64,000 nucleotides of DNA. Source: Clostridia bacterium. Lineage in GTDB: Bacteria; Bacillota; Clostridia; Christensenellales; Aristaeellaceae. Each line of letters starts with the position of its first letter. The first letter of the stretch is position 1. Both the position numbers and the translations under genes were made by a program. Below are positions 48,113 to 63,795 of this stretch, piece by piece. Under the pieces are notes generated by a model, which saw only the letters and a program-made list of their open reading frames with translations, was not told where the DNA came from and ran no database searches. The stretch is taken from positions 62,001-126,000 of the forward strand of contig JAFWEJ010000005.1 of NCBI GenBank assembly GCA_017512985.1, given 5' to 3'.

Positions 48113-48379
48113 TCAGTTGTTCAGCTCATCATCCCAGGGTTCCTCATACCCCATCGCCCGGTCGCTGTCCTCCAGGCCGGCCGTGGTCGGGTCCACAATT
48201 ACACCGATCAGGCCCAGGAAGGTCAGCGCCTGGTTCATCAGCCGCAGGACCAGGTTTTCTGTCACCTCCGGGAACACGCCGAACAGTGCCAGCATGCTGT
48301 ACACAAACCCGATAATCAGGCTCAGGAAGCTTCCGAGCCAGGCCTTGTTTTTAAAGCGCACTCTCCAGTTTATTTTCAT
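48113..48379 (-). CDS. Phi-LC3-type holin
   Basis: The protein is 88 residues with AAAAGGAG before the ATG. MKINWRVRFKNKAWLGSFLS and two hydrophobic helices with an acidic tail (LEDSDRAMGYEEPWDDELNN, GYEEPWDD being highly typical) identify the phi-LC3 holin family. It forms the membrane lesion that releases the lysin. Last gene of the cluster. Confidence 0.9.
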   Translation of the reverse strand: MKINWRVRFKNKAWLGSFLSLIIGFVYSMLALFGVFPEVTENLVLRLMNQALTFLGLIGVIVDPTTAGLEDSDRAMGYEEPWDDELNN

Positions 48380-48410
48380 TCCGATTCACTCCTTTTACAT
48401 AAAAACCGGA

Positions 48411-48629
48411 TCATGATCTTCTCAAATCGTCCAGTTCATTTTTCAGGTTCTTGACCTGCTCCTCCAGCCGGTACATGCGTTCCACCACATTGTTGTGCTT
48501 GTCCACCTTCTCCTCCATCTTCTCCAGCCGGTAGGCCACCAGCGCCGCCTGTTTCCGGTTGCTGATATACACCCCCAGGAACGCGAAACCGGCGGTGATC
48601 GCCGCGACAAGAATGGTTTCAGGATTCAT
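48411..48629 (-). CDS. Small membrane/coiled-coil phage protein (XhlA-like position)
   Basis: The protein is 72 residues: one N-terminal membrane helix (ILVAAITAGFAFLGVYIS) and a coiled coil (YRLEKMEEKVDKHNNVVERM, YRLEEQVKNLKNELDDLRRS). Such proteins sit beside holin and lysin in Bacillota prophages and assist lysis. It overlaps the lysin stop by 11 bases. Confidence 0.8.
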   Translation of the reverse strand: MNPETILVAAITAGFAFLGVYISNRKQAALVAYRLEKMEEKVDKHNNVVERMYRLEEQVKNLKNELDDLRRS

Positions 48630-49386
48630 GCTTCATCAACTCCTTCCATGTGGCCGGTCCCGCGATCCCGTCCGCGGCCAGGCCGTAATCCTTCTGGAAC
48701 TGCCGCACCGCGGCGTCCGTACACCTGCCGAAATCCCCGTCCGTGCCGCAGGGCCCGAGGTCGTAGCCGAGCCCGGCCAGGATTGCCTGCAGCTTTTTCA
48801 CTTCCGCGCCTTTGCTGCCTTTTCGCAGCGTCGGGAACAAGGGGACTTCGTCCGGAACCGGGGGACTGTCCCCGGCAGTACCGGATCCGGAATAATCCAC
48901 GCCCTGCAGTTCTCCCCAGTGCGTCCATTTTCCGGCGGTCACTTTTGTGGTCGTGACGCCGTTCATCGTGCCCATCGCCTCAATGACGGTGCCGCTGCCG
49001 ACGAAGAGGCCCACATGGCTGTACTTCTTCCCGTTCCAGACGAAGACCGCCGTTCCGGGTTTCAGCGTCCCCCAGTCCGTCCGCTTTCCTTTTTTCAGTT
49101 CGCCCTTGCAGACGCAGTACTTCCGGTACATGGTGTCGCTGCCATGGTACATATACCCGCCCAGCTGCCTGAACGCCCACGAAAAAAGGCCGCTGCAGTC
49201 AGCGACCCTGTGCCCGGTCCATTTGCTCCCGTACCGTCTTCCCTGTGCCCTGTCGGCGTCTTTTGTCTTCTCCAGTTCCTTCTGTTTCGCCGCCGTCCAG
49301 GTTTCTCCGGCCGTGCCCCAGATGTAGCCCCAGTGTTCTGATAATGCCTGTTGGAACTTGTCAATCAATGCCTGTGTATGGATCAT
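48619..49386 (-). CDS. Endolysin: NlpC/P60-type domain plus peptidoglycan-binding domain
   Basis: The protein is 255 residues from the ATG at 49386 (AAGGGG site); ATG 49407 is possible. The N-terminal catalytic domain has ADCSGLFSWAFRQLG (Cys), a TLKPGTAVFVWNGKKYSHVGLFVG strand (His) and fits CHAP/NlpC-type prophage lysins. The C-terminus is a PG_binding_1 domain (LRKGSKGAEVKKLQAILAGL, DGDFGRCTDAAVRQFQKDYG). The linker is Ser/Gly/Pro-rich. Cleaves peptidoglycan to release particles. Confidence 0.9.
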   Translation of the reverse strand: MIHTQALIDKFQQALSEHWGYIWGTAGETWTAAKQKELEKTKDADRAQGRRYGSKWTGHRVADCSGLFSWAFRQLGGYMYHGSDTMYRKYCVCKGELKKGKRTDWGTLKPGTAVFVWNGKKYSHVGLFVGSGTVIEAMGTMNGVTTTKVTAGKWTHWGELQGVDYSGSGTAGDSPPVPDEVPLFPTLRKGSKGAEVKKLQAILAGLGYDLGPCGTDGDFGRCTDAAVRQFQKDYGLAADGIAGPATWKELMKHES

Positions 49387-49491
49387 GCCGGTACCCCTTT
49401 TTGACATAGTCTCTTTGTTTTTTGTGATTTATCCGGAAACCGCGTACAGGGAAAAATGACATACGGCGGATAAGAAACGGGAATCGCTTGT

Positions 49492-49902
49492 TTATTCGGT
49501 TACTGTTTGCACTCCGGCCGGGACCGGAAGGAGATCCGGATTTGTTCCCGCCGGGCTGACGCTCACCGTGCCGTCCCCGTTGTCGGACAGGGTGACGCCC
49601 TCCGGCAGCGCTTCCGGAACGCCTTCGTTCGTTCCGTCCCAGGTCCAGAGCTTCAGCTTTGCCAGCAGGTACCGCCGGAAAGCTTCGTCCGCCATGCCGG
49701 GTTCCCGCTTCAGGCCGGCCGCTTCCGCGATGGCGTCCAGCTGAATACCCTCCGCCTGGGAAAAGGAATACGCGGACTGCATGGACCGGACCAGGGGGAT
49801 CAGGTCCGCAGCCTGGCGGAGCACCGCTTCCGCCAGCGCCATGAAGCGGGGCTTCTCCCGGGAAGCGCCCGGGAAAAGGGAAAGATAACCGGATAATTCC
49901 AT
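49492..49902 (-). CDS. Tail/baseplate protein (DUF2612/tail protein I-like)
   Basis: The protein is 136 residues from the ATG at 49902 (AAAGGAGAA site). DLIPLVRSMQSAYSFSQAEG, QLDAIAEAAGLKRE and AKLKLWTWDGTNEGVPEALP match small baseplate-attached proteins of the DUF2612 or P2-gpI type that follow gpJ in contractile tails. No tail fibre gene follows it, which is unusual. Confidence 0.75.
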   Translation of the reverse strand: MELSGYLSLFPGASREKPRFMALAEAVLRQAADLIPLVRSMQSAYSFSQAEGIQLDAIAEAAGLKREPGMADEAFRRYLLAKLKLWTWDGTNEGVPEALPEGVTLSDNGDGTVSVSPAGTNPDLLPVPAGVQTVTE

Positions 49903-49913
49903 CGTATTCTCCT

Positions 49914-49942
49914 TTGACAGCCTGCCTTCCCTGCTGTACAAT
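49914..49942 (+). promoter_or_regulatory. Promoter of the YgjV-like gene inside the tail cluster
   Basis: A perfect TTGACA (49914-49919) and TACAAT (49937-49942) are 17 bases apart. The -35 overlaps the ribosome binding site (AAAGGAG on the other strand) of the divergent tail gene. Confidence 0.8.
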
Positions 49943-49976
49943 CCCGGATTGATGACCCTGTTGGGAGGAATGTGCT

Positions 49977-50513
49977 TTGGAGATTGCCGCGCAGGTTTTC
50001 GGGATTCTTGCCTTTATCGTTTCCGTCATCTCATTCCAGCTGAAGACATACCGCCGGATCCTGTGGGCGCAGACGCTATGCGCGCTGCTCTTTGTCACGC
50101 ATTTCTACCTGCTGTACCTGAGCGGCCGGGCGGACGCGGTCACCGGCGCCGCGCTCAACGGCGTATGCGCTGTCCGGGACGTCGTGCTGCTCCTGACCGA
50201 GAAAAAGCGCACCCGGAAACTGACGGTCTGCCTGACGGTGGCCTTCTCCGCCGCGGTGGTGGCCGTGGGGCTCCTCTCCTGGACCAGCCGGGTCTCCCTG
50301 CTGTTCCTCATCGCCATGATCCTGAACACCGTCGCCCTGTCCATTCCCGATCCGAACCGGGTGCGGATCTTTATCATGATTTCCTCCCCCTTTGCCTGCG
50401 CGTACGATATCCTGACGCACTCCATCGGGGGAACGGTCAACGAAGTGGTCTCCTTCCTGTCCGCCCTGACCGCCTTCCTGCGTTACCGGCGGCAGGAAAG
50501 GAAGCTCAGCTGA
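49977..50513 (+). CDS. YgjV-like membrane protein inserted in the tail cluster
   Basis: The protein is 178 residues starting with TTG at 49977, eight bases after GGGAGGA; no ATG is suitably placed. It has about six hydrophobic helices (VFGILAFIVSVISFQLKTYR, FLIAMILNTVALSIP...) and fits the YgjV family of inner membrane proteins of unknown function. It lies on the opposite strand between two baseplate genes and its 3' end overlaps that of the gpJ-like gene by eight bases, so it interrupts the tail operon. Confidence 0.8.
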   Translation: MEIAAQVFGILAFIVSVISFQLKTYRRILWAQTLCALLFVTHFYLLYLSGRADAVTGAALNGVCAVRDVVLLLTEKKRTRKLTVCLTVAFSAAVVAVGLLSWTSRVSLLFLIAMILNTVALSIPDPNRVRIFIMISSPFACAYDILTHSIGGTVNEVVSFLSALTAFLRYRRQERKLS

Positions 50514-51423
50514 AGCGGATGCTCACCCCTCCGTTCCGGACCGCGGTGATCTTTTCGTCCCAGGCGCAGGGAACGACCGTCCGGACCACGCCGGAGGTTC
50601 CCGGCACCGAGACCTGCATATCCGTCACGACAAAGGTGTTTGCGATCCCGGGATCCGCGGCGTAAGCCACGCCGTAGAGCTGGGGGACGTTCAGGGATAT
50701 GCCCAGGCCCAGCCGGTCCACATAATCCGTGATCGCCGGCGCCACCGCGTCCGTGATTGCCTGCTGATCCCCTCCGGCCAGCAGCGTGATATACGGATAG
50801 ATCTGGATCATTTTGTCCGTGTAGGGCGTAAAGCTGACCGTGTGCTCATTCCCCGCCGCGTCGGTAATGCTCTTTGATGTGCTCCCCCAGGTTCCGATGC
50901 CCGGGGCTTTTTTGTTCCAGATCGCCTCCGCGACGGCCGCGCCGTTTCCGCCGCGGGTCACCACGGCGACGCTGTGCGCCGGAATGCCGTCCGCGTCCGC
51001 GCTGTCCGTATCGTTGACATACACCCGCGCGTCCTTCACGCCGCGGGCGTTTTTCACGGCGGCGAGCAGGGCGTCCGTCCCGGACGTTCCCCGTCCCGCC
51101 AGCGAGGTCCGGATCCGGGCGCGGACCTCCGCGTCCGTTTCCCCCGCCGCCCGGGTGATCCCGTACTGCGGCAGGAGCAGGTCCAGCGCGGCGCCCGCGG
51201 CGTACTGCGGGTTCCGGCTGTTGTACGCCTGCAGGCAGAGGGCGGAGACGTCGTCCAGCGCTTTGGCGAATACTGACAGGAGCTGGTAATCCGGGACGGA
51301 AGCAGACAGTTCCGACTCCACGCCGAAAATGCTGCGATATGACTCCACCAGGTCCTCCAGCCGGTCTTCATAGGTCGGCATATGTAACCCGGAATCGTCG
51401 ATATAGGGAGCGAAATAGGACAT
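50506..51423 (-). CDS. Baseplate J-like protein
   Basis: The protein is 305 residues with GGAGG before the ATG. The N-terminus (MPTYEDRLEDLVESYRSIFG, QLLSVFAKALDDVSALCLQA YNSRNP region) and GTSGTDALLAAVKNARGVKD, VYVNDTDS are classic gpJ/XkdT sequence. It forms the baseplate wedge or ring that triggers sheath contraction. Length is slightly short for the family. Confidence 0.9.
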   Translation of the reverse strand: MSYFAPYIDDSGLHMPTYEDRLEDLVESYRSIFGVESELSASVPDYQLLSVFAKALDDVSALCLQAYNSRNPQYAAGAALDLLLPQYGITRAAGETDAEVRARIRTSLAGRGTSGTDALLAAVKNARGVKDARVYVNDTDSADADGIPAHSVAVVTRGGNGAAVAEAIWNKKAPGIGTWGSTSKSITDAAGNEHTVSFTPYTDKMIQIYPYITLLAGGDQQAITDAVAPAITDYVDRLGLGISLNVPQLYGVAYAADPGIANTFVVTDMQVSVPGTSGVVRTVVPCAWDEKITAVRNGGVSIRFS

Positions 51424-51431
51424 AAAGCCTC

Positions 51432-51791
51432 CTACAATGAAAAATCAATTTCCGCGTAACCGTCATTGGTCACAACAGTGCACTGATAAGCAAACTGCCG
51501 GCCATTCTCCACGGAAAAAGTTACGTCATCCACGTCCAGCACGCCGGGCGTTTCCCGGATATATGTGGCGATGTATGACGCCAGGGCCTGCCGGTCCGCT
51601 TCCGTAAAGCGGGATTCCCGCAGCATGTCCACGGCGGCGTTCCCCCATTCCGGATTCTCCCACCACTCCCCGGCAAGCAGTTCAAGCCGGTATTTCACCA
51701 GCCGGGCGACGGCCGGGGCGCCCCGAAGGAGCGCGCCGGAGGACAGCGCCGGCAGGATATCGCCGGACGCGTCCGCAGGGCGTAATAACAT
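51432..51791 (-). CDS. Baseplate wedge protein (XkdS/gp25-like)
   Basis: The protein is 119 residues from the ATG at 51791 (GAGGTGAAT site), four bases after the spike gene. NPEWGNAAVDMLRESRFTEA, DRQALASYIATYIRETPGVL and VDDVTFSVENG fit the DUF2634/gp25 group. Works with gpJ in the baseplate. The longer frame to 51911 overlaps the spike gene. Confidence 0.75.
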   Translation of the reverse strand: MLLRPADASGDILPALSSGALLRGAPAVARLVKYRLELLAGEWWENPEWGNAAVDMLRESRFTEADRQALASYIATYIRETPGVLDVDDVTFSVENGRQFAYQCTVVTNDGYAEIDFSL

Positions 51792-51795
51792 GCAT

Positions 51796-52131
51796 TCACC
51801 TCGTCTGAAATCCCACAAACGCAAAAGCGTCGGAGAGGCTGTGCGTCCTTCCGGACGCGGGTTCCGCCGCTTCCCCGGTATCCAGCCAGGCGTCCGTGTC
51901 GCAGTCGGCAAAGATCACCAGGCAGGGATCGCCGGGAAAGACGTCAAAGCGCCAGGGCATGAAGACCGGCACGTCCCGCAGCGGCGGCATGCCCTTCACC
52001 GCCGGACGGACCACCGCGGTCCGGGATTCCCCGTCAAAGGATTCCACCGTGCCGGGCAGGGCGCAGTGCAGCGAAGACAATATCTCCTTCTTTAAGGCGG
52101 CAACCGCCGCAGGTGTAATTCTTTCCAACAA
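51796..52131 (-). CDS. Baseplate spike protein (Gp138 N-terminal-like)
   Basis: The protein is 111 residues and has no ATG start: two adjacent TTG codons (52131 and 52128) follow GGGGA. CALPGTVESFDGESRTAVVR, PLRDVPVFMP and SLSDAFAFVGFQ match the Gp138_N/OB-fold spike hub that closes the tail tip. Compact, without a C-terminal needle extension. Confidence 0.8.
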   Translation of the reverse strand: MLERITPAAVAALKKEILSSLHCALPGTVESFDGESRTAVVRPAVKGMPPLRDVPVFMPWRFDVFPGDPCLVIFADCDTDAWLDTGEAAEPASGRTHSLSDAFAFVGFQTR

Positions 52132-52146
52132 GGTTCCCCGATTTCA

Positions 52147-52917
52147 TTATGAATTATGAATTGCGAGCACAAGCTCCGCCTGCCAGTTCCCTTCCAGGTT
52201 GTCCGCGTCCACGCTGCGCTCCGTCACCAGGCCTTCGTACCGTTCCCCCTTCCGGGTAACGGAGATCCGTTTGCCCAGCGGCCAGCCGGCGGGCTTCGTC
52301 CGCAGGACCAGCAGGCCGTTCCCGGCGGCCGCCGGGCTGTCCGTCAGGTCCGCCTCCGAAAGGGTCATGGAAACCGGCAGGCCGGAGGACGGGACGACGC
52401 ACAGGCCCGCGTCCGTGAGATAACCCTTCGCACCGGCGGCGGACAGCGCCTCCGCGATACACTCCGCCGCCCTGCCGAAAAAAGCCTGGCCGCGGGCGCG
52501 GACCGGATCCTCCCCGGGAAAGGACAGGAGGCGGATGCCGGTGCCGGAGGCGGACAGGATCCGCCGCACGGTTTCCGAAACGGAAACGCCGGCCTCCACG
52601 GAAAGGGAGACCGGCGCTTCCCAGAGGCGAAGGCCCGCGGAAAAGACGATTTCCGTCACCGTTCCTTCCGGAACGGTCCGCAGGAAAACGTCCGAGATGC
52701 TGCCCGACGCCAGGACGGAAGCCTCATGGCGCACGGACAGCCGCTTTGCCGCGGACAGCAGCAGATAATCCGAATCCGCCAGGTTCCACAGCCGCAGGGT
52801 AAAGGGCATCGGATACAGGCCGACGCTGTCCGCGCCGGTCAGCCGGGCATGATGAAAACCGGTCACCGCAAAGCCGTCCGCAAAAACGGCCAGTGACCGG
52901 AAAGGCGCTTTGTGCAT
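52147..52917 (-). CDS. Baseplate hub (XkdQ/gpD-like)
   Basis: The protein is 256 residues with CGGAGGAAAA before the ATG. SVEAGVSVSETVRRILSASG, IAEALSAAGAKGYLTDAGLC and LLVLRTKPAGWPLGKRISV fit the late-control gpD/XkdQ hub fold. Family members are usually about 320 residues, so this is shortened. It joins the tail tube to the spike. Confidence 0.75.
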   Translation of the reverse strand: MHKAPFRSLAVFADGFAVTGFHHARLTGADSVGLYPMPFTLRLWNLADSDYLLLSAAKRLSVRHEASVLASGSISDVFLRTVPEGTVTEIVFSAGLRLWEAPVSLSVEAGVSVSETVRRILSASGTGIRLLSFPGEDPVRARGQAFFGRAAECIAEALSAAGAKGYLTDAGLCVVPSSGLPVSMTLSEADLTDSPAAAGNGLLVLRTKPAGWPLGKRISVTRKGERYEGLVTERSVDADNLEGNWQAELVLAIHNS

Positions 52918-52947
52918 TTTTCCTCCGGGAAACCGGATCCCGCCGGG

Positions 52948-53034
52948 TCAGCGTTTTGTATACTTCAGGTTGTTTTCCAGGCAAAGCTGCTCCGCCGGCG
53001 ATCCGGGCGTTACTTTCAGTTTCAGTTTTGCCAA
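52948..53034 (-). CDS. Possible tiny tail-cluster protein
   Basis: A 28-residue frame from TTG (53034) to TGA (52948), beginning KLKLKVTPGSPAEQLCLENN, fills the otherwise empty gap between two baseplate genes. VTPGSPAEQL has the look of a LysM-like or tail X-like start. No good ribosome binding site, so the call is weak. Confidence 0.3.
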   Translation of the reverse strand: MAKLKLKVTPGSPAEQLCLENNLKYTKR

Positions 53035-53044
53035 TCGGTCCGCG

Positions 53045-53404
53045 TCAGTTCCCGAACGTGTCGCTCCAGACCACCCGGTAATCCGTCAGGTTCTTCTCCG
53101 CCGGATCCGCCCGGGCGGTTTCCTCCGTTCCCCGCAGGCAGAAAAGCGAGCCGAGCCCCTTCCCGCCCCGCAGGTACCGGAAGGGCAGGAGCAGGTCGTT
53201 GACTTCCCCGCAGGAGGTGACCAGCGGAATCATGTTCACCAGCAGTTCGCCGCCGGAATGGTCCCAGACGGAAACAAACCACTGCCTCGGCGCCGGCAGG
53301 TAGCGCAGTTTCACCTGCGCGTGAAACGCCTCCCCGTCGATCTCCGGATCCAGGGTCATCACCTGCCAGGGATCACCGGTCAGCGGCAGGATGTATCCGG
53401 TCAT
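53045..53404 (-). CDS. Baseplate plug-like protein (DUF6983-like)
   Basis: The protein is 119 residues. YILPLTGDPWQVMTLDPEID, VKLRYLPAPRQWFVSVWDHS and LPFRYLRGGKGLGSLFCLRG follow the pattern of DUF6983, named for the plug protein of the cyanophage Pam3 baseplate. It would close the tube inside the hub. It begins three bases after the upstream stop. Confidence 0.75.
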   Translation of the reverse strand: MTGYILPLTGDPWQVMTLDPEIDGEAFHAQVKLRYLPAPRQWFVSVWDHSGGELLVNMIPLVTSCGEVNDLLLPFRYLRGGKGLGSLFCLRGTEETARADPAEKNLTDYRVVWSDTFGN

Positions 53405-53407
53405 GCA

Positions 53408-53932
53408 TCACACCCCCGCCCGCCGCAGCATCTGAAGGAACGGCGATCCGGAAACCTTTTCCGCGCTGCCCGCGCTGCCGGTGTTCTTCCGGACGGAGGA
53501 ACTGGTGTTGGCCTTGCCGGTTTTCGCCTGTTCCTCCGCGGCCGGGATATACTCCGTGAACGTCAGCGTGCCGCTCCAGCCGTACTGGTTCTCCCCGTCC
53601 TGGACGGCGATAATCTCCGTCAGCAGCATCCGGTCATAGGACGCCATGGAGGTGACAACCCGGCAGAGATACCGGCTTTTTTTGATTGCCGCCATCGCCT
53701 CCAGCATCCGCGCCGCCCAGCCGGCGGGGTGCTCCGTATCCGTTTCCACAACGGACAGCGTGACCCGTCCGGCCAGGTTCCGGGCGCCGTAGACAATGTC
53801 CGTGCCCTGGGAAGCTCTGCTGTCCAGGTTCAGCGCCAGGCTGTGCTCAATCGCCGTGACGCCGGTAAAGTGATACGTGTATGTTTTGCCGCCGATACTG
53901 CAGGCGACATACGCCGCGGAAGATGCGCCCAT
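53408..53932 (-). CDS. Tail/baseplate protein between tape measure and plug
   Basis: The protein is 174 residues from the ATG at 53932 (GAAAGGAG site); a GTG at 53962 is upstream of that site. ACSIGGKTYTYHFTGVTAIE and GWSGTLTFTEYIPA resemble DUF6046/Dit-like proteins of contractile tails whose tails carry LysM. The Ser/Lys-rich C-terminus (KTGKANTSSSVRKNTGSAGS) looks disordered. Confidence 0.65.
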   Translation of the reverse strand: MGASSAAYVACSIGGKTYTYHFTGVTAIEHSLALNLDSRASQGTDIVYGARNLAGRVTLSVVETDTEHPAGWAARMLEAMAAIKKSRYLCRVVTSMASYDRMLLTEIIAVQDGENQYGWSGTLTFTEYIPAAEEQAKTGKANTSSSVRKNTGSAGSAEKVSGSPFLQMLRRAGV

Positions 53933-53955
53933 AAAAAGGCTCCTTTCTGTTGTGC

Positions 53956-53985
53956 TGGACACGCGGGAACGCGGAGTGATATGAT
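53956..53985 (+). promoter_or_regulatory. Promoter of the TrkA-C membrane protein gene
   Basis: TGGACA (53956-53961) and TATGAT (53980-53985) are 18 bases apart. The surrounding 50 bases resemble 56040-56090, which carries the same promoter. Confidence 0.65.
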
Positions 53986-54019
53986 GGAAAGAGAATCATC
54001 CGTAAGGAGACCGGAAAGC

Positions 54020-54736
54020 ATGAACATCTACCTCTCCCTGCTGCTCTTTTCCTTTGTCATCCTGCTGTACTGGGTCATCACGGAGCTGTTTACCTTCTTT
54101 TTCCGCCTGACAGGGCTGCCGGCGGAAAAGGCGCGCTTCCAGGTCATCTCCCTGCTGACCGGCACGGGCTTTACCACCAGGGAGAGCGAGATGATCCTCT
54201 CCTCCCGGCGGCGCCGCCGCCTCGCGCGCGTCACCATGCTCTTCGGGTATGTGTTCAACATCACCATCGTATCCGCGTTCATCAACATCTTCATTTCCAT
54301 GAAGGTCGTGCCGTTCGGCTACGAGTTCATCGGCTTCCTGATTCCCCTGGGCACCGTCGCGCTGATTTTCGTCATCATGCGCGTGCCGAAGGTTCACGCC
54401 TGGTTCGACAGCCTCATGCGGCGCCTCGCGGACCGGATCTTTGACCGGAAGGAAACCTTCAACGCGGTCATGCTGATCGACAACATCGGCTCCGAATCCA
54501 TCGCCCAGGTAACCATCCGCCACATCCCGGAGGAATACGCGGGCCTCAGCCTGGCCGATACAAAGCTGCGCGCGGAAACCGGCATCCTGGTCATGCTCGT
54601 GGAGCGCCAGGGCGGCAAGCCGGTGCCGGCCCAGGCGGATACCGTGTTTGAGCCCGGCGACAAACTGACCGTCTTCGGGGATTACAAAACAATCTGCAAC
54701 GCCTTCCACGCGAAAGAGCATTTCGCGGACGACTGA
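54020..54736 (+). CDS. Membrane protein with TrkA-C (RCK-C) domain, in the tail cluster
   Basis: The protein is 238 residues from the ATG at 54020 (AAGGAGA site). Three to four membrane helices at the N-terminus (NIYLSLLLFSFVILLYWVIT, TMLFGYVFNITIVSAFINIF, IGFLIPLGTVALIFVIM) and a TrkA-C domain at the C-terminus (YAGLSLADTKLRAETGILVM, FEPGDKLTVFGDYKTIC). RCK-C domains bind ligands such as cyclic dinucleotides. LLTGTGFTTRES between helices may be a short channel loop. It is a host-type gene on the strand opposite to the tail operon. Confidence 0.75.
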   Translation: MNIYLSLLLFSFVILLYWVITELFTFFFRLTGLPAEKARFQVISLLTGTGFTTRESEMILSSRRRRRLARVTMLFGYVFNITIVSAFINIFISMKVVPFGYEFIGFLIPLGTVALIFVIMRVPKVHAWFDSLMRRLADRIFDRKETFNAVMLIDNIGSESIAQVTIRHIPEEYAGLSLADTKLRAETGILVMLVERQGGKPVPAQADTVFEPGDKLTVFGDYKTICNAFHAKEHFADD

Positions 54737-54817
54737 AAAAAACACGGAAGTTTTTCCCGCCCGCGGCGTCTGACAGGGTGCGGCGGAAAAACGCCGCCGG
54801 AAAGGAAGGAACAGAAA

Positions 54818-55183: not shown

Positions 55184-55187
55184 TCCC

Positions 55188-55215
55188 ACCGCCGCGCCGG
55201 GCGCGGCGGTTTTTT
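55188..55215 (+). terminator. Intrinsic terminator of the cystatin-like gene
   Basis: A 10-bp GC-rich stem (55188-55197, 55201-55210) is followed by T6 that overlaps the stop of the tape-measure gene on the other strand. Confidence 0.85.
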
Positions 55216-56266: not shown

Positions 56267-56848
56267 ATGGAAGACTGCCGTATTATTGAGCTGATAAAGA
56301 AGACATACATGGATGCCCACAAGCCCAAAACCCTGAAACATGTGGAAGCTGTAGCAGATACTGCAGTGTGGCTTGCGGGAGTACATCACCTGGATCATGC
56401 AAAGACAGAAACAGCTGCGTTGTTACATGATATCAGCGTTATCTTGACTCCGCAGCAGATGTATGAACTGGCAATAGAACGTAATATGACAATGGATCCA
56501 GCGGAAGAGAAATACCACTTCCTTCTGCATCAGAGGATCTCAAAGCTTATCGCCCTTGAGCGATTCGGCATCACAGATCCCGATATACTGAATGCTGTTG
56601 AGTGCCATACAACATTAAAGAAAAATGCTGGCCCCTATGATCAGGTTGTATTCATTGCTGATAAGATTTCCTGGGATCAGGAAGGACAGCCGCCATATTA
56701 TGAGACACTGAAACAGTTGGCAGCGGAATCCCTGGATCAATCCTGCTATTTTTATATCCGTTATCAGTTTGATCATAATCTGCTGTTGATGCCCCATCAA
56801 TGGATCATGGAGGCGTATCAGGAATTGAAAACAAGATTAGGGATGTAA
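56267..56848 (+). CDS. HD-domain phosphohydrolase (YqeK-like)
   Basis: The protein is 193 residues with AAGGAGATTAC before the ATG. HVEAVADTAVWLAG, ETAALLHDISVIL (HD pair), and AVECHTTLKKNAGPYDQVVF, IADKISWDQEG match YqeK-type HD hydrolases, which split diadenosine tetraphosphate. It is more AT-rich than its surroundings, so it was probably acquired separately. It sits between the chaperone and tape-measure genes on the opposite strand. Confidence 0.8.
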   Translation: MEDCRIIELIKKTYMDAHKPKTLKHVEAVADTAVWLAGVHHLDHAKTETAALLHDISVILTPQQMYELAIERNMTMDPAEEKYHFLLHQRISKLIALERFGITDPDILNAVECHTTLKKNAGPYDQVVFIADKISWDQEGQPPYYETLKQLAAESLDQSCYFYIRYQFDHNLLLMPHQWIMEAYQELKTRLGM

Positions 56849-56870
56849 CGATAACCCGGAAGATAGAGCA

Positions 56871-57439
56871 TCACGCCCGGACTGCGTCAGCAGCCCGGGC
56901 TTCGTTCTCCCTGCGGACGCGGATCAGTTCCGTGATGTCCAGCAGGTCATCCAGGGTGTAGGTTCCATCCCAAAGCTCATGCTGCCGCCACATTCCGACG
57001 GCTACCGGCAGGAACAGGAACTCGTCAATGTTCGGGCAGGTCAGGGGGCAGTATCCGCAGGGGCGGCTTCCGGCTTCGACCGCCCGCCGCCGAAAAAACC
57101 GGACAGGCTCCAGGCGATCCCTTCCAGCAGGAGCTTCATGCAGGAAGGCGTATCGTGTTCCAGCTCCGGATAGCCCCACTCGTTCCCGGTCATGACCGGA
57201 TGGGGACCCGCCGGCAGGAGGACCTCAGTGTGGTTGAGGACGGAGGTCATGACGGAGCGCAGTTCGTCCTCCGAGAGCGAGGCGATCAGGTCCAGCATGG
57301 TCGGATTCGGATGATGCTCCTCCAGCCTCATCAGGAGGCGGAGGAGCGTGACGCCGGAAAAGGCGTCCAGCTTCGTCAGGCGGAAGCCGGTCGGGTTTCC
57401 GTCAATCGTAATCTGAATATCTTTGGTAATCTGGCGCAT
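56871..57439 (-). CDS. Tail assembly chaperone, frameshifted long form (G-T type)
   Basis: A minus-one slip at TTTTTTC (57092-57098) joins the first 116 residues of the chaperone to a 73-residue extension that ends at TGA 56871, giving 189 residues. The extension begins RRRAVEAGSRPCGYCPLTCP and ends helical (DDLLDITELIRVRRENEARA). Its open frame overlaps the end of the short form as in lambda G/GT. The extension would bind the tape measure whose gene follows. Confidence 0.7.
57041..57439 (-). CDS. Tail assembly chaperone, short form (G/XkdN-like)
   Basis: The protein is 132 residues from the ATG at 57439 (CGGAGGTTCC site). DIQITIDGNPTGFRLTKLDA, FSGVTLLRLLMRLEE and LIASLSEDELRSVMTSVLNH match small tail chaperones between tube and tape-measure genes. 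It stops at 57041 after GFFGGGRSKPEAAPADTAP when no frameshift takes place. Confidence 0.75.
   Translation of the reverse strand: MRQITKDIQITIDGNPTGFRLTKLDAFSGVTLLRLLMRLEEHHPNPTMLDLIASLSEDELRSVMTSVLNHTEVLLPAGPHPVMTGNEWGYPELEHDTPSCMKLLLEGIAWSLSGFFGGGRSKPEAAPADTAP
57092..57098 (-). other. Slippery heptamer for minus-one frameshifting
   Basis: T TTT TTC in the zero frame (GGT TTT TTC), the canonical X XXY YYZ form. Slipping back one base leads into the 56871 frame. Confidence 0.75.
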
Positions 57440-57505
57440 GGAACCTCCGTTATGGTATATTACTGAGTGCATCACTATACGAGTTCATATGGAAGGAGAA
57501 CCGAA

Positions 57506-57691
57506 ATGAAAGATTATAAGCTGGTTTACCTGAATAAAGGTTTCAGCGCTTCCCGGGAAAAGGACCTGGACAAAGCTGAAGAAAAGATCAGGGAAATGAC
57601 GGATCAGGGCTGGGAACTGCAGCAGATCGCCTGCCCGGATGACGGCGTCGGCGCCATGGTCGGCGTGTTTTTCAAAGAGCGGAAGCTGTAA
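57506..57691 (+). CDS. DUF4177 protein
   Basis: The protein is 61 residues from the ATG at 57506 (AAGGAGAA site). YKLVYLNKGF and KAEEKIREMTDQGWELQQIA are the DUF4177 pattern, a small alpha/beta protein of unknown function. An extended -10 (TGGTATATT, near 57452) may drive it. Opposite strand within the tail cluster. Confidence 0.8.
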   Translation: MKDYKLVYLNKGFSASREKDLDKAEEKIREMTDQGWELQQIACPDDGVGAMVGVFFKERKL

Positions 57692-57830
57692 GAAGCCAGA
57701 CAGGGAGCGGAGAAATTCGCTCCTTGTTTTGTGATCGTCGCAGCCACTCTGACTGCGTCTGTGACTCGTCAATCGTGGGCTCCTGTAACATGGGAGGCAT
57801 TCGCCGCACTGAAGTGCGGATGCCTCCGCA

Positions 57831-58265
57831 TCACTGCTCCGTGATCGTCGTTGCCAGCAGCGTATAAGTCACATTCGTCGCGGTGCGGTCATAGGTCCGG
57901 TCCGGAGCCTTCTGCAGGGAAACGCCGGTGCAGATCGTCTTGAACCCGGAGACATTGTCCGTGATCGTCAGCGTTCCCAGGGCGATGCGGTTCGGGCTGT
58001 TCGTACTCCTCGCCCACTTCGCCCAGCGGCGGAGGAAATCATCCCCGATACTGTTCTGCGGCACCTCGATCTGGATGGTGCCGTTTGTCGTCTTCAGGCG
58101 GTTGACCACGACATAGCCATCCGCCGTGGAGGTATGGGAAGTCAGGTCCCCCGCAGCGGAGATGGTGATCTTCCCGATCCCGCACAGGTGCAGGTTCGCC
58201 GTGCCGACGTCCGGGTGATAGAGGACGGATTTGACGTCCGGAAGAGAATATACGTTATAAGCCAT
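57831..58265 (-). CDS. Tail tube protein (DUF3277 type)
   Basis: The protein is 144 residues with GGAGGGTTTTC before the ATG. NVYSLPDVKSVLYHPDVGTA and GTIQIEVPQNSIGDDFLRRW, LTITDNVSGFKTICTGVSLQ fit the DUF3277 tube family that pairs with DUF3383 sheaths. It forms the inner hollow tube. It lies downstream of the sheath fragment. Confidence 0.8.
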   Translation of the reverse strand: MAYNVYSLPDVKSVLYHPDVGTANLHLCGIGKITISAAGDLTSHTSTADGYVVVNRLKTTNGTIQIEVPQNSIGDDFLRRWAKWARSTNSPNRIALGTLTITDNVSGFKTICTGVSLQKAPDRTYDRTATNVTYTLLATTITEQ

Positions 58266-58267
58266 AC

Positions 58268-58296
58268 TTGAAAACCCTCCGCATTGCGATTAAAAT
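58268..58296 (+). promoter_or_regulatory. Promoter of the lipoprotein gene in the tail cluster
   Basis: TTGAAA (58268-58273), 17 bases, TAAAAT (58291-58296). The -35 lies just before the start codon of the divergent tube gene. Confidence 0.65.
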
Positions 58297-58325
58297 ATGG
58301 ATATAAAAAGAGGAGTAATACTGCC

Positions 58326-59090
58326 ATGAAAAAACTGACTGTTGTTTTCCTTATTACCATCCTTGCCGCCATATTCCTGACTGCCTGTATGGCCGAGGAA
58401 GATTATTCCGGAATCTGGTATATGCGCGAGATCAGTTTAGGCGGCGTAACGCTGAGCCTGGAAGGGCTGGATCTGGAAGCGCTGCACAAACGGCAATATA
58501 TTGATCTGCGCGCGGACGGCAACGCCGAACTGCTGAACAATATGACAGACAGCGGCATATATCAGTCCCTGGACGGCAGCTGGTCCATCAACGGCAAAGG
58601 AGAAATAGAGATACAGTTCCCCGGCGGGGTAATGACTCTCATCCCGCAGGATGGTAATCTCTGCCTGCAGGACGGCGACACGGTCCAGGTCTACGGAAGA
58701 AATGATCCATCAACCTACCATACTGAACTCCACACAGAAGAGAATCAGATTGTTCCGATTGCGGGAAACACGGCTGAAAAGGAAGAGGATTTTTTCGGCA
58801 TCTGGACATCAAGCGGTGAGATCCTGATCAACGGAGCCCGGCAGGAAATATTTTCCAGCCAACAGATAATACTGACAATCCTTCCGGGCAGGCTCAGCTA
58901 TTCCGTCGGAGACAGAACAGAAGACCGCATAACTCTTTTCCAGGACAACATTCTTTCAGCTTGGGTTGAAATTGCCCCGGAAGAATACCTTCTTGATTTT
59001 ACCCTGGCATTGTTTGAAGACGGCTCGCTGGGCTGGTCGACAAATCAGGAAGGAATGCCAATCAACCTTTACCGGAAAAACGCACAATAA
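58326..59090 (+). CDS. Lipoprotein of unknown function, in the tail cluster
   Basis: The protein is 254 residues from the ATG at 58326 (AGAGGAG site; the frame from 58284 would start inside the promoter). KKLTVVFLITILAAIFLTAC is a lipobox signal. The mature part has two similar beta-rich halves (YSGIWYMREISLGG... and FFGIWTSSGEILING...), each like a small lipocalin-type barrel. Function unknown; it is outside the membrane. Confidence 0.75.
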   Translation: MKKLTVVFLITILAAIFLTACMAEEDYSGIWYMREISLGGVTLSLEGLDLEALHKRQYIDLRADGNAELLNNMTDSGIYQSLDGSWSINGKGEIEIQFPGGVMTLIPQDGNLCLQDGDTVQVYGRNDPSTYHTELHTEENQIVPIAGNTAEKEEDFFGIWTSSGEILINGARQEIFSSQQIILTILPGRLSYSVGDRTEDRITLFQDNILSAWVEIAPEEYLLDFTLALFEDGSLGWSTNQEGMPINLYRKNAQ

Positions 59091-59102
59091 GCAGCCGCGT
59101 CG

Positions 59103-59130
59103 AAACCGCCCGGAATGCCCGGGCGGTTTT
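59103..59130 (+). terminator. Intrinsic terminator of the lipoprotein gene
   Basis: AACCGCCCG/CGGGCGGTT stem followed by TTTT. It ends two bases before the stop of the sheath fragment on the other strand. Confidence 0.8.
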
Positions 59131-59131
59131 G

Positions 59132-59317
59132 TCAAACCTGCACATTCACGGTAATGACAATACTTTCAATGCTGCCAGCCAGGGTCAGGGCGCACTGCAC
59201 CGGAACAGCTTTGTGCGCCGCGCGGTCCGCGTCGCTCTGGTCGTCATAGCTGTCAGCCCAAAGCATAAAGCCATTCTCAATGATGTCCCCGTTATGGACC
59301 GGACCGCTATAGGCCAT
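59132..59317 (-). CDS. Stand-alone sheath C-terminal segment (duplicate)
   Basis: The protein is 61 residues: four new residues (MAYS) and then GPVHNGDIIENGFMLWADSY... ending SIESIVITVNVQV, nearly identical to the end of the sheath protein at 61337 (about 52 of 57 residues). It has an ATG and an AAGAAGGT site, so it could be made. DNA identity is lower than protein identity, meaning selection has kept it. It may be a remnant of a second sheath gene or a separate cap-like subunit. Confidence 0.65.
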   Translation of the reverse strand: MAYSGPVHNGDIIENGFMLWADSYDDQSDADRAAHKAVPVQCALTLAGSIESIVITVNVQV

Positions 59318-59439
59318 ACAGTTTACCTTCTTTTCCTTCTTTTATACGGGCCGTTTTTGTGATACAGTAATATGGAATTGTATTGATAACAGAAAAAAAG
59401 TGAAACCAGTTCCGACTGAAGAATACCGGAGGTACAGAA

Positions 59440-61248
59440 ATGAAAAAACTTGCTGCCCTTGTACTGGCCCTGCTTGTGCTTGTATCCGGCACGGTTTACG
59501 CGGAGGACACGCCTGCGCCCGCAATCCGCGATACCCTCAGCGCGGACGGTTTCCGCCATGTTGACATGCCGGTCGATGTCTCCGGCGACTGCAGTGCAAA
59601 CATTCTGCTGGATGCTTCCCACCTGTCCGTGGAGGACCTGCTGTACGCGAAGCTGCTGGCGGATTTGGTTCCCTATATCCATACCGCTTCGCATACCCGG
59701 GAGGAACTGGATGCCCTCAGCGGGGAATACCTGCTGAATCCGGTTGTCCGGCTCAGCTTCCTGAAAGAGGGAACGGACGGAATCCATATTTATCTGCGGA
59801 TGCACTGGTACTCACAGGAGAAGAACCTGTCCCGGGGTTATGACCTGATGTACGAAATGTTCTTCGAGGCAGACCTGGATGATGCGGAAAGCATACTTGC
59901 CGCGGCCGGCGCTGTAAAAGAGAACCTTCATGACACCATATCTTCCTCCCCCTACCAAGTCCAGATCTACCGGGCAGCCGCCGTCAGCAACCTGCTGAAC
60001 CGGGCGTATAACTACGTCACCTACCTGGATTAGTACGCCTTTCTGGAGCAGGCAGAAACACAGCTTGCGGACAACCCCGAAGCTTTCCTGGCACAGATGA
60101 AGCGGGTTCGCGGCCTGTTGGCGGATTCCCGGGGCGCCGTTGCCGCTTTTGCGGGAAATGAAGACAGCATCGCCCTGAACGGGCGCCTGGCCGACGCGTT
60201 CCTGTCCCGGCTGGGCACGGAATCCCACGAACCCGCTGACTACAGCAGCCTGCCCGTGCCCGCCGCCCGGGAAGGGCTGGTCATTGACAGCAATGTCCTG
60301 TACAACCTGATTTTCGTCGGGTTCGGGACACTGGATATACAATATTCCGCTGACCTGGACGCCCTGGCTGAACTGGTCACGGACAAATACCTCCGCCCCG
60401 GCATGGAAACCGCTTACAACGTCATGCACGGTTTTTCCGATTCGTTGGGTATGTATATCGTTTCCTACCGCGATTCTGAAATCCGGAGCAGCTTCGAAGC
60501 CATGGAACAGGCCGGAAGCTTTGTCGCGGGGCTGGACATGGGTCAGGAGGAACTGGACGGCTATATTTCTTCCGCCGCCGGCTACTATTCACCTGTTTCA
60601 GCTGAAAATTCCCTGGATGCGGTTTTCAATGCTGTATCCGATATCATTGACTATCTGGAAGGAGATGACCCGCTGTGGCGGCAGCAGGGCATGAAGTCCC
60701 TGGAAGCCATGACGCCCGAATCTGTCCGGGCTTACGCTCCGCTGTACACTGTCCTGGCCGAAAAAGGAGTCCGTTCCACCGCCGGCGGTGCTGAAATCCT
60801 GGAACAGAACGCAGACCTGTATGACGTGATCCTGAATCCGTTCCATATCTTTCCCGGGGTGTTTCAGGATGTGCCCGAAGACCATCCACGCTATAATGCT
60901 GTCCGTTTCGTAACGGATAAGCAAATCATGCCGGCTCCGGACGGCGTGTTCGGCGTGGATCTTCCTGCCACCGAGGGTGACCTGGCCGTTGCCCTGACAG
61001 CCCTCGTCTTTGGTGAGGCATATTCCCTGGAGACTTCGCTCCAATTCCTTGCCGGGTACGACATCATGAAAGCCGATACAGATCCCGGCGCGGCCCTTAC
61101 CGCCGGAACTGCTGCAGATCGCCTGAATGCGCTTGCTTCCCTCGCGAGGCTTAAACCCCAGTATGCGGTTGCGGACGCGGACGCCGTTCTGACCCGCGGT
61201 GAATTCGCGGAAATCCCGATGAACTGGAACGACTGGATAGCAAATTAA
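59440..61248 (+). pseudogene. Secreted M16C-like/SLH protein with in-frame TAG
   Basis: A signal peptide (MKKLAALVLALLVLVSGTVYA) opens a frame that continues without shift to TAA at 61246, except for one TAG at 60031-60033. Residues up to about 440 resemble the C-terminal half of M16C metalloproteases (PreP-type; VLYNLIFVGFGTL, MYIVSYRDSEIRSSFEAMEQ), without the HxxEH half. The end has an SLH-like domain (FQDVPEDHPRYNAVRFVTDK). The protein would be 602 residues if the amber codon were read through. Either a recent nonsense mutation, an error, or readthrough. Confidence 0.6.
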
Positions 61249-61336
61249 TCAGTCCGCTTCCCTGAACAGCAACCGAGGCATGCTTCCGTACCTCTTCCGG
61301 TGCGCCGCGCAGGTATTCTTCACAGGATTCAGAAAA

Positions 61337-62455
61337 CTATACCTGCACATTCACAGTAATGACAATCGATTCAATGCTTCCCGCCAGGGTCAGGGCAGCC
61401 TGGACCGGGACGGCTTTGTGCGCCGCGCGGTCCGCGTCGGGCTGCTCATCATAGCTGTCAGCCCAAAGCATAAAGCCATTCTCAATGATGTCCCCGTTAT
61501 GAACCGGGCCGACATTACTGCCGCGCCAGGCAGCGGAGGCGAGAACACCCATATCGGTATAATTCATGAGGATCGCCGAGAACCGGTTGATGAACTGCGC
61601 CGTGGAATCGTCCGTCTGGGGCATCTTGTCCGGGTTTTCCGCCAGCATGGAAACGGCCGCGTTCTGCAGATCCTCTGCGATCTTGTCCACATACAGGACC
61701 TCGTCATACCGCTGGCCGTTGCTGACGGATCCGTTCTCCAGCAGCAGATGCAAATAACCTCGGGCAACGTATACGTTGCATCCAAGCGCCTTCAGGCTGT
61801 CAACGTCAGATTGTGTCAGGGAAGAGGGCTGAATACCCTGGATCGTCTTATAGCACAGCGCAAAGGCGGAGCCTTTATGCGAGAGCTCCAATCCCATCGC
61901 CGTACCCATCACCGCGGCGCAGTCGGATATGCTGCTGCAATAAAACGGCAGCGCACGTTTGACCTGTGCGCCGTGCAGTTTATCCAATACACTGTCGGCA
62001 GCGATCGCCGATGCGACTGTGCCGGTGACCGGCACGAAGAGCATCAGCGGGATGGGCAGGGATTCCACATACTGCGCGAAAGTCAGCCAGTCGGCGGCGG
62101 TACAGGAACTGTCGGTAACCATGACGCCGTAGAATGAAGCAGTCTGGTCCAAGACCGCGTTCAGCGCCCGGGACAGGGTCTCGGACGCCGGATAGCAGGA
62201 GACCAGCAGCCGGGCGGGCGCCGGGGAGGCGGCAAAATACTTCAGCGCGGCTTTATACGGTTCCGTATCCGTACCGAATCCCAGCCCGGCCATTCCTTCC
62301 GCCGCCTCTGTGCCGGAACTGTACGTCATCAGCCGCCTGGACGCGGTATAACCCGAATCCTTCACCAGCAGCAGGCCGGTGTTGAAGGACGCCGGGGACG
62401 CGCCGGCGCGGACCGTGTTGACGACGACGCGGGCAACGGTATTGATGGAAAGCAT
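61337..62455 (-). CDS. Tail sheath protein (DUF3383 type)
   Basis: The protein is 372 residues with CGGAGGAAT before the ATG. The pattern SINTVARVVVNTVRAGASPA, LKYFAASPAPARLLVSCYPA, MGTAMGLELSHKGSAFALCY KTIQG, and the end SIESIVITVNVQV fits the DUF3383 sheath. It forms the contractile outer cylinder. Upstream on the same strand are the neck proteins. Confidence 0.85.
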   Translation of the reverse strand: MLSINTVARVVVNTVRAGASPASFNTGLLLVKDSGYTASRRLMTYSSGTEAAEGMAGLGFGTDTEPYKAALKYFAASPAPARLLVSCYPASETLSRALNAVLDQTASFYGVMVTDSSCTAADWLTFAQYVESLPIPLMLFVPVTGTVASAIAADSVLDKLHGAQVKRALPFYCSSISDCAAVMGTAMGLELSHKGSAFALCYKTIQGIQPSSLTQSDVDSLKALGCNVYVARGYLHLLLENGSVSNGQRYDEVLYVDKIAEDLQNAAVSMLAENPDKMPQTDDSTAQFINRFSAILMNYTDMGVLASAAWRGSNVGPVHNGDIIENGFMLWADSYDEQPDADRAAHKAVPVQAALTLAGSIESIVITVNVQV

Positions 62456-62506
62456 AAAATTCCTCCGAAAATTTTTTTATTTTTCCGAAAATTTGTTCAT
62501 TTTTAC

Positions 62507-62537
62507 TGGACATTTATTGGACAACAGGGTGTATAAA
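62507..62537 (+). promoter_or_regulatory. Possible plus-strand promoter between sheath and neck genes
   Basis: TGGACA (62507-62512) and TATAAA (62532-62537), 19 bases apart. Transcript would end at the terminator 62590-62621. Confidence 0.45.
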
Positions 62538-62589
62538 GGAAATGAACAGGGTTTCTTCTTCATATTTTTCTCCTATATTTCCTTCTCAT

Positions 62590-62621
62590 GGCTCCCTTCG
62601 CAACAAAGGGAGCCTTATTTT
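62590..62621 (+). terminator. Intrinsic terminator, plus strand
   Basis: GGCTCCCTT/AAGGGAGCC stem (62590-62598, 62606-62614), then TTATTTT overlapping the end of the neck gene on the other strand. It would close a short RNA of about 75 to 80 nt from 62507. Confidence 0.65.
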
Positions 62622-63175
62622 GCCTGCCGGAAAATAACGACCGCCGGGGCCGGCCGGATGGAATTGCGCGCCGGGGCGGCCTGTTCGCAGCGAACCCTCA
62701 GGGATATGGTGAGATCCGCGCGCCTGCGCCAGAGGGAGCCCTCCTCCTCATGGAGAAGAGACGGCTGCGGCGGGTCCGGAACCGGAAAGATCCCGGCGAA
62801 GCGGAGAATCTGACGGGGAAATCCGGCGCCGTCCAAATAAAGCATAGACCGGATGCGGTGGGCATATTCCTCCGCGGCCGGTCCGTAGCAAACAATAATC
62901 AGCTGATATTTCAGCGTTGTGCAGACAATCGGGAAATGCGTGCCGGCTGTACTGTTCCCCGCGTTGTACTCCGTGGAGACCGGATCCGCGGACAGATCCT
63001 GGAGGACCGTCCAGTAAATGACGTTCCGGTTCCTGGGCGGGCGCGGTACGTTCTCCGGTTCCGCATATGCTTCATGGATCAAGGCGATTGCGTCCGCGGA
63101 GGATTTGTCCAAGTTCAGGCAAGCGCAGAGAGCATCGAAGATCACCGTATGAAAAGAAGAGGATTCAGAGATCAT
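62615..63175 (-). CDS. Neck/tail terminator protein (LIC_12616/gp12-like)
   Basis: The protein is 186 residues from the ATG at 63175 (GGGAGGGTGAAG site). VIYWTVLQDLSADPVSTEYN, YQLIIVCYGPAAEEYAHRIR and EEGSLWRRRADLTISLRVRC follow the LIC_12616/gp12-like neck-protein pattern, usually next to DUF3383 sheath genes. It would cap the tail. Confidence 0.75.
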   Translation of the reverse strand: MISESSSFHTVIFDALCACLNLDKSSADAIALIHEAYAEPENVPRPPRNRNVIYWTVLQDLSADPVSTEYNAGNSTAGTHFPIVCTTLKYQLIIVCYGPAAEEYAHRIRSMLYLDGAGFPRQILRFAGIFPVPDPPQPSLLHEEEGSLWRRRADLTISLRVRCEQAAPARNSIRPAPAVVIFRQAK

Positions 63176-63326
63176 CTTCACCCTCCCAAATAGCACGTTT
63201 TTTTACATAGAAAAACACTCCCCTGCTGCCTGGCTCTACGATACCCTCGCAGGCCGCATCGCAAATGGAGCGCGCGCATACAATATCATGCAGACCATGT
63301 CCTTTCAACAGCCTATCAGGATTCAC
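63165..63326 (-). CDS. Small protein between two neck genes
   Basis: The protein is 53 residues from GTG 63326 to TGA 63165, beginning MNPDRLLKGHGLHDIVCARS and ending KKRAIWEGEDDL. It overlaps both neighbours by 11 bases, the kind of tight packing expected for a true operon gene, and its frame is closed immediately upstream by TGA. Ribosome binding would depend on coupling. No family recognised. Confidence 0.5.
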   Translation of the reverse strand: MNPDRLLKGHGLHDIVCARSICDAACEGIVEPGSRGVFFYVKKRAIWEGEDDL

Positions 63327-63795
63327 GCATCAGGACAGCATATGCCTGGTAATATCCAAAGGCTCCCCAGTCCCGGACACGGACTACGCGCCAGGTCTGG
63401 TTGTTCCAGCGGATGCGGTCCGCACCTGTAAAAGAAGCACCGGAACTTCTGGGCGAACCTTCTGCGACCGCCAGTGGCGGAAGTATCGCAGAAGGTGAGG
63501 TCATCTGAAACGAGCCGTCTCCACTGTGTGGAGCGGCGACGATTGAAGATGCGGGTCCCTCTGGGACTCCGGTGCTTAATGCATAGTCCGTATAGATCGC
63601 TATGAACTGTTCTTCCCTTTCTTCCTCCGGCAGCAGCCGGATCATCTCCGGGGTTCCCGGATGGACGCAGCCTTGAGCCTGAACAGTCACTGTCCGGGAT
63701 GCCGTTCCCGCCCGGGTGCGGGTATAGGTGATACGCTCCACAGTAAAAGCGGTGCAACCCAACTCAGGATCTAAAACAGCGGAAGTAATATCCAT
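63316..63795 (-). CDS. First tail-cluster gene, adaptor/neck-like
   Basis: The protein is 159 residues with GAGGAAAATGA before the ATG. N-terminal strand pair (FTVERITYTRTRAGTASRTV TVQAQG), EEEREEQFIAIYTDYALSTG and the end GADRIRWNNQTWRVVRVRDW GAFGYYQAY are of the kind seen in head-tail joining or neck proteins. It is the first gene after the divergent HTH gene. Confidence 0.65.
   Translation of the reverse strand: MDITSAVLDPELGCTAFTVERITYTRTRAGTASRTVTVQAQGCVHPGTPEMIRLLPEEEREEQFIAIYTDYALSTGVPEGPASSIVAAPHSGDGSFQMTSPSAILPPLAVAEGSPRSSGASFTGADRIRWNNQTWRVVRVRDWGAFGYYQAYAVLMRES

Follow-up and report, generated by a model that had tools for sequence, protein, structure and literature searches.

A contractile-tailed virion locus interleaved with cell genes in Clostridia, a probable domesticated particle of the gene transfer agent or PBSX kind

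Results

Gene content of the locus

The 64,000-nucleotide stretch analysed here, called the window (C16:62001-126000; the assembly has 17 contigs and 2.6 Mb), comes from a Clostridia bacterium of the Aristaeellaceae and carries, at 48113..63795, a set of tail, baseplate and lysis genes of a contractile-tailed particle. An earlier note on this DNA had described a capsid-less, tailocin-like tail cluster bounded by a helix-turn-helix (HTH) gene. Gene identities were taken from profile searches against Pfam and PHROGs, and these support the neck, DUF3383 sheath, tube, chaperone, tape measure, hub, spike, wedge, gpJ-like, lysin and holin genes, all of them on one strand as proposed, the minus strand; the terminator that was said to close the cluster corresponds to a hairpin at 48096-48066 (Table 1). 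The capsid-less part of that description did not survive. On L004, a separately numbered stretch of the same locus that reaches past window base 64000 and of which the next 20 kb were examined, genes for capsid, portal, a DUF2213 protein, cement, TerL and a DUF4054 protein follow directly on the same strand, and the supposed boundary, an XRE-like open reading frame (ORF) on the plus strand, is internal. The own locus comprises 25 virion genes of the Pam3-like myovirus type, with 16.7 kb of virion sequence in a span of 29.5 kb. These genes gave 26 query proteins, the protease and the scaffold being one ORF wherever both were matched.

The protein encoded at the TerS position has a conserved three-helix, HTH-like region, with blocks of predicted local distance difference test scores of 84-94 in the predicted structure; a fold search against PDB returned nothing at E <= 0.001, the top matches being HTH proteins (E 4.0) and Sf6 TerS at 5.8. 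In 18/18 loci the chaperone gene has a T TTT TTY site, in frame, from which a conserved extension is entered; four of these loci are phage-type (three in genome G043 and that of G012).

An inverted 105 nt repeat pair (80%) lies at L004:5450-5554 and L004:15057-15161 and falls within open frames, those of the neck gene and the protease-scaffold gene; similar cross-matches occur in other genomes. An exact 47 nt repeat pair was also seen at window 44334-44380 and 45749-45795; gene-end copies, that of the sheath included, flank inserted genes.

Table 1. Features of the virion locus, in window coordinates or, where marked, in those of L004 (V, virion strand)
Feature	Position	Strand	Support or remark
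TerS	L004:19137-19622	V	named by position and conservation; no family match
TerL	L004:17893-19140	V	Pfam 2.6e-12
Portal	L004:16474-17892	V	Pfam 4.8e-103
DUF2213 protease fused to scaffold-like part	L004:14203-15708	V	Pfam 3e-46
Cement	L004:13680-14180	V	Pfam 7.6e-15
Major capsid	L004:12683-13654	V	Pfam 7.3e-63
91 aa ORF	L004:12350-12625	V	
DUF4054 protein	L004:7810-8235	V	Pfam 5.9e-11
gp10-like head-tail protein	L004:6375-6881	same as tail genes	profile search
XRE-like HTH ORF, second start 63927	63927..64000, on to L004:6124	+	ORF list; between neck and gp10-like genes
Neck or head protein	63316..63795	-	phrog_939 6e-16; contains in-frame stretch derived from repeat I1
Tail (neck) terminator	62615..63196	-	PF23961 6.5e-10
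Contractile tail sheath, DUF3383	61337..62455	-	PF11863 4.3e-42; phrog_205 2.5e-54; Pam3 sheath 1.5e-6
Interleaved cell gene	60097..61248	+	weak SLH match under cut-off; no PHROG match
Interleaved gene, secreted-protein-like by eye	59440..60033	+	gene call
171 nt copy (89%) of sheath gene 3' end	59136..59306	-	direct repeat D1, pairs with 61341-61511
Interleaved gene, lipoprotein-like by eye	58326..59090, longer ORF from 58284	+	gene call
Tail tube, KPP10_Orf10 family	57831..58265	-	PF11681 1.7e-16
Interleaved small gene, 61 aa	57506..57691, longer ORF from 57467	+	gene call
Tail assembly chaperone, slippery T TTT TTC near end	57041..57475	-	phrog_1688 1.6e-5; slightly under Pfam cut-off
ORF with chaperone -1 frameshift extension	56871..57179	-	phrog_4364 4.5e-12; reading-frame check
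Interleaved cell gene, HD domain	56267..56848	+	PF01966 1.2e-11
Tape measure, 269 aa	55215..56024	-	phrog_167 1.1e-6
Interleaved gene, 121 aa	54818..55183	+	77-79% relatives in neighbouring slot of G001, G031
Interleaved cell gene, TrkA_C domain	54020..54736	+	PF02080 5.2e-10
Dit-like distal tail protein	53408..53962	-	PF21821 8.4e-8
Baseplate plug, Pam3 gp18 family	53045..53404	-	PF22479 1.4e-5
Baseplate hub	52147..52917	-	phrog_196 1.7e-8
Spike, N-terminal domain	51796..52131	-	PF18352 1.3e-16
Baseplate wedge	51432..51911, gene-call start 51791	-	phrog_120 5.9e-9
gpJ-like baseplate wedge	50506..51423	-	phrog_6 9.1e-22; gpJ-like Pfam match under cut-off
Interleaved cell gene, 178 aa	49977..50513	+	gene call
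DUF2612 protein, gpI position	49492..49941	-	PF11041 5.3e-6
Endolysin, NlpC/P60 and peptidoglycan-binding domain	48619..49407	-	PF00877 4.6e-11, PF01471 3.9e-18
Small coiled-coil protein, lysis region	48411..48629	-	phrog_1863 1.2e-11
Holin	48113..48379	-	PF04531 6.1e-21
Intrinsic-terminator-like hairpin	48066..48096	-	sequence inspection

Distribution, inheritance and selection

Among the 45 genomes of the genus, which may be Aristaeella, the sheath was found in 31 (12 of the 13 high-quality ones), TerL in 29 (10 of 13, with no internal stop among the TerL matches listed) and one or the other in 36 (all 13); rpoB, for comparison, was found in 31 (11 of 13). Since sheath matches take in phage copies, the resident type is better traced by TerL. 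In a family sample of 300 genomes the capsid matched 28/37 genus members among those listed and 8/263 others, the latter at 34-51% identity and some of them short, and in an order sample of 396 all 8 matches fell within the genus. The named relatives are metagenome-assembled genomes of rumen and gut Clostridia, such as RUG111, RUG199 and CAMKNZ01.

Distances between virion genes followed those of rpoB-rpoC in Mantel tests, with r 0.827 for the capsid (18 genomes, 0/2000 permutations), 0.925 for the sheath (20 genomes, 0/2000) and 0.789 for TerL (22 genomes, 0/5000). The tests used rpoB and rpoC only and the first listed copy per genome; G029_C57 and G013_C17 were dropped and genomes in which rpoB was not found excluded, the capsid set includes G026, of unassigned capsid type, and the host tree also contained r844, a long antisense frame. 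Host and virion gene trees have clades in common, such as G003-G022 with G010, G006-G020 and G001-G007-G031 with G027. A pair of CobW-like genes with a gene of 267 aa, whole or partial, makes up a left flank common to G000, G001, G007, G027, G031, G002 and G038. Of the 11 left-flank genes closest to the G000 locus, 10 have a relative in the flank of G038. The gene lists of C16:102001-159999, read by eye, showed neither a recognisable integrase nor a replication gene, the rest of the genome not having been searched for them.

Selection was examined as the ratio of nonsynonymous to synonymous substitution rates (dN/dS) in three pairs of loci. The ratio was at most 0.51 over 25 genes for G001-G031, 0.06-0.37 over the 20 genes available for G000 and its nearest relative, G038, and at most 0.31, the spike excepted, for G031-G007. 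The spike values (0.51, 0.56 and 0.73) are unreliable because its ORFs are over-extended (323-325 aa) in G001, G031 and G007. For G001-G031 the values were 0.021 for TerL, 0.029 for the capsid and 0.044 for the portal, next to 0 for the tube, 0.065 for the lysin and 0.078 for the terminator; in G000-G038 the portal, at 0.226, was not among the slowest genes. The packaging genes are strongly constrained in G001-G031, but tube, lysin and terminator are strongly constrained too, which argues for a packaging machine that is in use rather than for one that is special.

Cell genes between the virion genes

Inside 48113..63795 the tail genes are broken up by plus-strand cell genes, a feature that the earlier note does not mention. 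The gap genes, called with a custom codon-usage caller and, like the flanking genes, in many cases named by eye, include at the own locus HD, TrkA_C and M29 aminopeptidase genes and others for secreted or lipoprotein-like proteins, mostly on the opposite strand; the virion strand carries a BspA-like leucine-rich repeat (LRR) gene and an exchanger-like gene. Relatives of the M29 gene, at 78-80%, sit at other places in G001, G031 and G038, and a search of 11 genomes gave matches in 10. Over six interleaved genomes 118 of 134 gap genes are antiparallel (G000 11/13, G038 28/32, G001 25/28, G031 22/26, G002 23/25, G020 9/10), counts that are not independent because G001 and G031 have 25 same-slot genes in common. 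Only two same-slot genes, LRR and exchanger, are common to the 13 gap genes of G000 and the 32 of G038. Interleaved loci span 29.5-43.7 kb, and a further ten loci have a compact form (13-20 kb, 0-3 antiparallel genes), several of these ending at a contig or fetch edge.

Family searches were made with 47 of the 56 gap genes of G001 and G002, nine being dropped because they were short, duplicated another or straddled two stretches. They matched 50 Pfam families, and the 25 listed are all cellular (GNAT, sigma-70, HU, exchanger, phosphatases and others); of 32 PHROGs matches the 25 listed include acetyltransferases, regulators or repressors, a sigma factor and one transposase.

The BspA-like LRR gene (L004:10782-12278, virion strand) keeps its slot between the 91 aa gene and the DUF4054 gene in G038, G001, G031, G007 and G003, and it may belong to the particle system. 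In G001 two gp10-like genes adjoin another gene that is present in repeated copies. The gaps of the G001, G031, G002, G007 and G027 loci contain short AATTNTG-type arrays (15 in G001 and 14 in G031); other stretches hold 5-7, the remaining loci 0-2, 288 kb of rpo loci 6 and window 1-47000 none. AT-rich TGAATT words, considered as a promoter motif (p 3.4e-5, uncorrected), were judged to be a repeat.

Discussion

The gene content, open frames, genus-wide presence, host congruence, purifying selection, shared left flank and antiparallel bias of the inserts lead us to regard it as probably a myovirus virion locus that has been domesticated, is inherited mostly vertically and makes a DNA-packaging particle like a gene transfer agent (GTA) or PBSX. 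Particle production, packaging of host DNA and delivery are what we infer from the genes. Of the GTA features listed in section 3 of PMC9662315, three of six can be recognised at gene level, and we do not claim GTA membership: the virion proteins derive from tailed phages, the locus is endogenised, with cell genes in its flanks and gaps and a left flank common to seven genomes, and its inheritance is mostly vertical and host-congruent (Mantel r 0.79-0.93), though capsids are intermixed with those of phages. The other three are the packaging of mostly random host DNA, an own genome too large to be packaged whole, for which the span to be housed would be 29.5-43.7 kb in the interleaved genomes, and the delivery of DNA to other cells. 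The suggestion in the earlier note of a domesticated contractile particle or tailocin of the DUF3383 type holds in its first half, given the host-congruent distances, the purifying selection and the lack of an integrase or replication gene recognised by eye nearby, and fails for the tailocin.

We picture the locus as having stayed at one site in the window's lineage while cell genes entered between the virion genes. Some signal would switch on the virion genes in a fraction of cells, TerS and TerL would load heads with DNA, pieces of the host chromosome included, short contractile tails, to judge by the 269 aa tape measure, would be joined to the filled heads, and holin and endolysin would lyse the producing cells and release the particles. 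Antiparallel inserts would be favoured because a co-directional insert would drive lysis and virion genes.

Several observations weigh against a domesticated packaging particle. Related virion genes adjoin another TerL in G012 and, together with replication-type genes, in G043, both prophage-like, and this other TerL also stands beside virion genes in G036 C32, G008 C25 and IMG/VR contig L242. The capsid tree mixes resident with phage types (3 label changes), and the phages as a single clade are rejected (p 0.026), where labels were assumed from layout or partial data for G032 (3 rows), G043a and G029_C63 (phage) and for G033 and L243 (resident); the capsid has therefore not been strictly vertical. 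Two contigs of G036 (L161 and L162, either of which may be the resident one) carry a sheath gene 98.5% identical over 1108 bp between neighbouring stretches that differ, and G029 contigs (L167-L169) are 95% identical over 657 and 1204 bp, again with differing adjoining stretches; such near-identical single genes fit a gene-by-gene exchange between phages and the locus that may even refresh it. The capsid gene of G003 is split by ~21 kb with recombinase-, transport- and glycosidase-like genes, a serine-recombinase-like gene replaces part of the head genes in G007, and on one contig of G036 only short pieces of four genes are seen. The flanks are others in G020, G009, G013 and G028, and both sheath and TerL went undetected in 9 of the 45 genomes, all <88% complete. 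No tail fibre gene was recognisable in the own locus, and no promoter motif common to the separated virion genes was found by word and dyad enrichment (98 virion upstreams vs 205 others). Since the HTH-like region of TerS is conserved, packaging may be guided to sites and perhaps not random; this region argues for a degree of site preference.

Among IMG/VR stretches, L239-L242 are compact, with capsids at 82-85%, and the TerL of L243 resembles the resident one at 78%. In G003 C40, G016 C10 and G018 C32 the capsid gene adjoins that of a large protein of serine-recombinase-like type (98-100% identical across species), and in G003 and G007 C6 (L046) the capsid gene is broken near codon 104 (stretches compared: L176 and L177 of G003, L046 of G007, L178 of G016 and L220 of G018). 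The capsid gene may be where a mobile element integrates. Overlapping matches had pointed to a 78 nt duplication at the G003 break, which the junction sequences did not confirm.

A tentative possibility is a PBSX-like killer, a particle that would package host DNA without delivering it and act as a bacteriocin on related strains. Its expected anatomy and inheritance are the same as those of a GTA, and nothing in the data separates the two; PBSX itself is described in PMC12946183 as GTA-like, packaging 13.4 kb pieces and acting as a tailocin. At our locus neither a tail fibre nor an immunity gene was recognised. It seems to us rather unlikely that the locus is a prophage relic devoid of its own function, its virion genes refreshed by exchange with phages of the genus. 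The intermixed capsids, the near-identical G036 and G029 stretches and the broken copies of G003 and G007 would suit such a relic; the resident TerL, however, is distinct from that of the phages and follows the host, and dN/dS is low in loci with a common flank and some common gap genes.

In a complete temperate prophage, integrase and replication genes accompany the virion genes, and neither was seen in the gene lists of C16:102001-159999 read by eye. An ordinary temperate prophage, its integration and replication genes unrecognised or at another place, would account for the full virion and lysis set and for the prophage-like G043 and G012 relatives, but we hold it to be improbable, and rejected it for the own locus, on account of the cell genes sitting between virion genes and the same flank in seven genomes. 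The earlier note had named two findings that would speak against its own tailocin-like reading, capsid, portal and terminase genes directly beyond 64000 and conserved synteny of a complete prophage; the former genes are there and are constrained as well, while synteny of the latter kind was not seen at the own locus, though the G043 and G012 relatives are prophage-like. R-type tailocins have no head or packaging genes. A headless tailocin would share the contractile tail and lysis genes, yet it is scarcely credible here, and at the level of gene content it is ruled out by adjacent head and packaging genes that are open and constrained.

Beyond a domesticated GTA- or PBSX-like locus, a more speculative extension, to which we give little credence, is a contractile GTA of rumen Clostridia in which the conserved virion genes, alternating with cell genes that change fast, would double as homology arms and particle-borne DNA would swap the cell-gene cargo, the locus being both vehicle and exchange island. 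It would fit because G000 and G038 share only two same-slot gap genes yet 10 of the 11 nearest left-flank genes, and because individual virion genes recur almost unchanged on two contigs of the same genome.

PBSX of Bacillus subtilis is contractile and is not known to be interleaved with cell genes. Compared by description rather than by homology, it resembles our locus as a defective, DNA-packaging, contractile element of a Gram-positive host, from which the own locus differs by its interleaved cell genes. The DNA packaging of PBSX is stated in PMC12946183. RcGTA, BaGTA and BhGTA are likewise made of tailed-phage proteins, chromosome-resident, host-congruent and without recognised replication genes by the definition in PMC9662315, where the tails described for BaGTA and BhGTA are non-contractile; the own locus encodes a contractile tail and has cell genes between its virion genes. 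FpGTA of Faecalibacterium is also a GTA-like element of gut Clostridia, but according to PMC12946183 it is podovirus-like and its TerS has no obvious DNA-binding domain, whereas ours has a sheathed tail and, a further point against the GTA likeness, an HTH-like TerS. The nearest phage likenesses are cyanophage Pam3 (capsid 8hdt 2.4e-20, sheath 8hdr 1.5e-6) and Agathobaculum phage AB434P2 (capsid 39.5%), both of them phages, unlike the own locus with its lack of recognised replication or integration genes.

No published description of this locus was found in the limited collection of literature searched. PMC12946183 places FpGTA second, behind PBSX, among the known GTAs and GTA-like systems of Gram-positives, and it names Christensenellaceae as one of several gut families for which it reports GTA-like packaging. 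If our reading is true, the locus would be a further Gram-positive GTA-like case, of the contractile type, in a genus for which four genomes are assembled into one or two contigs each. As its virion genes are open and constrained despite the cell genes wedged between them, how a broken particle operon works becomes testable, as does a possible transfer of DNA by such particles in the rumen.

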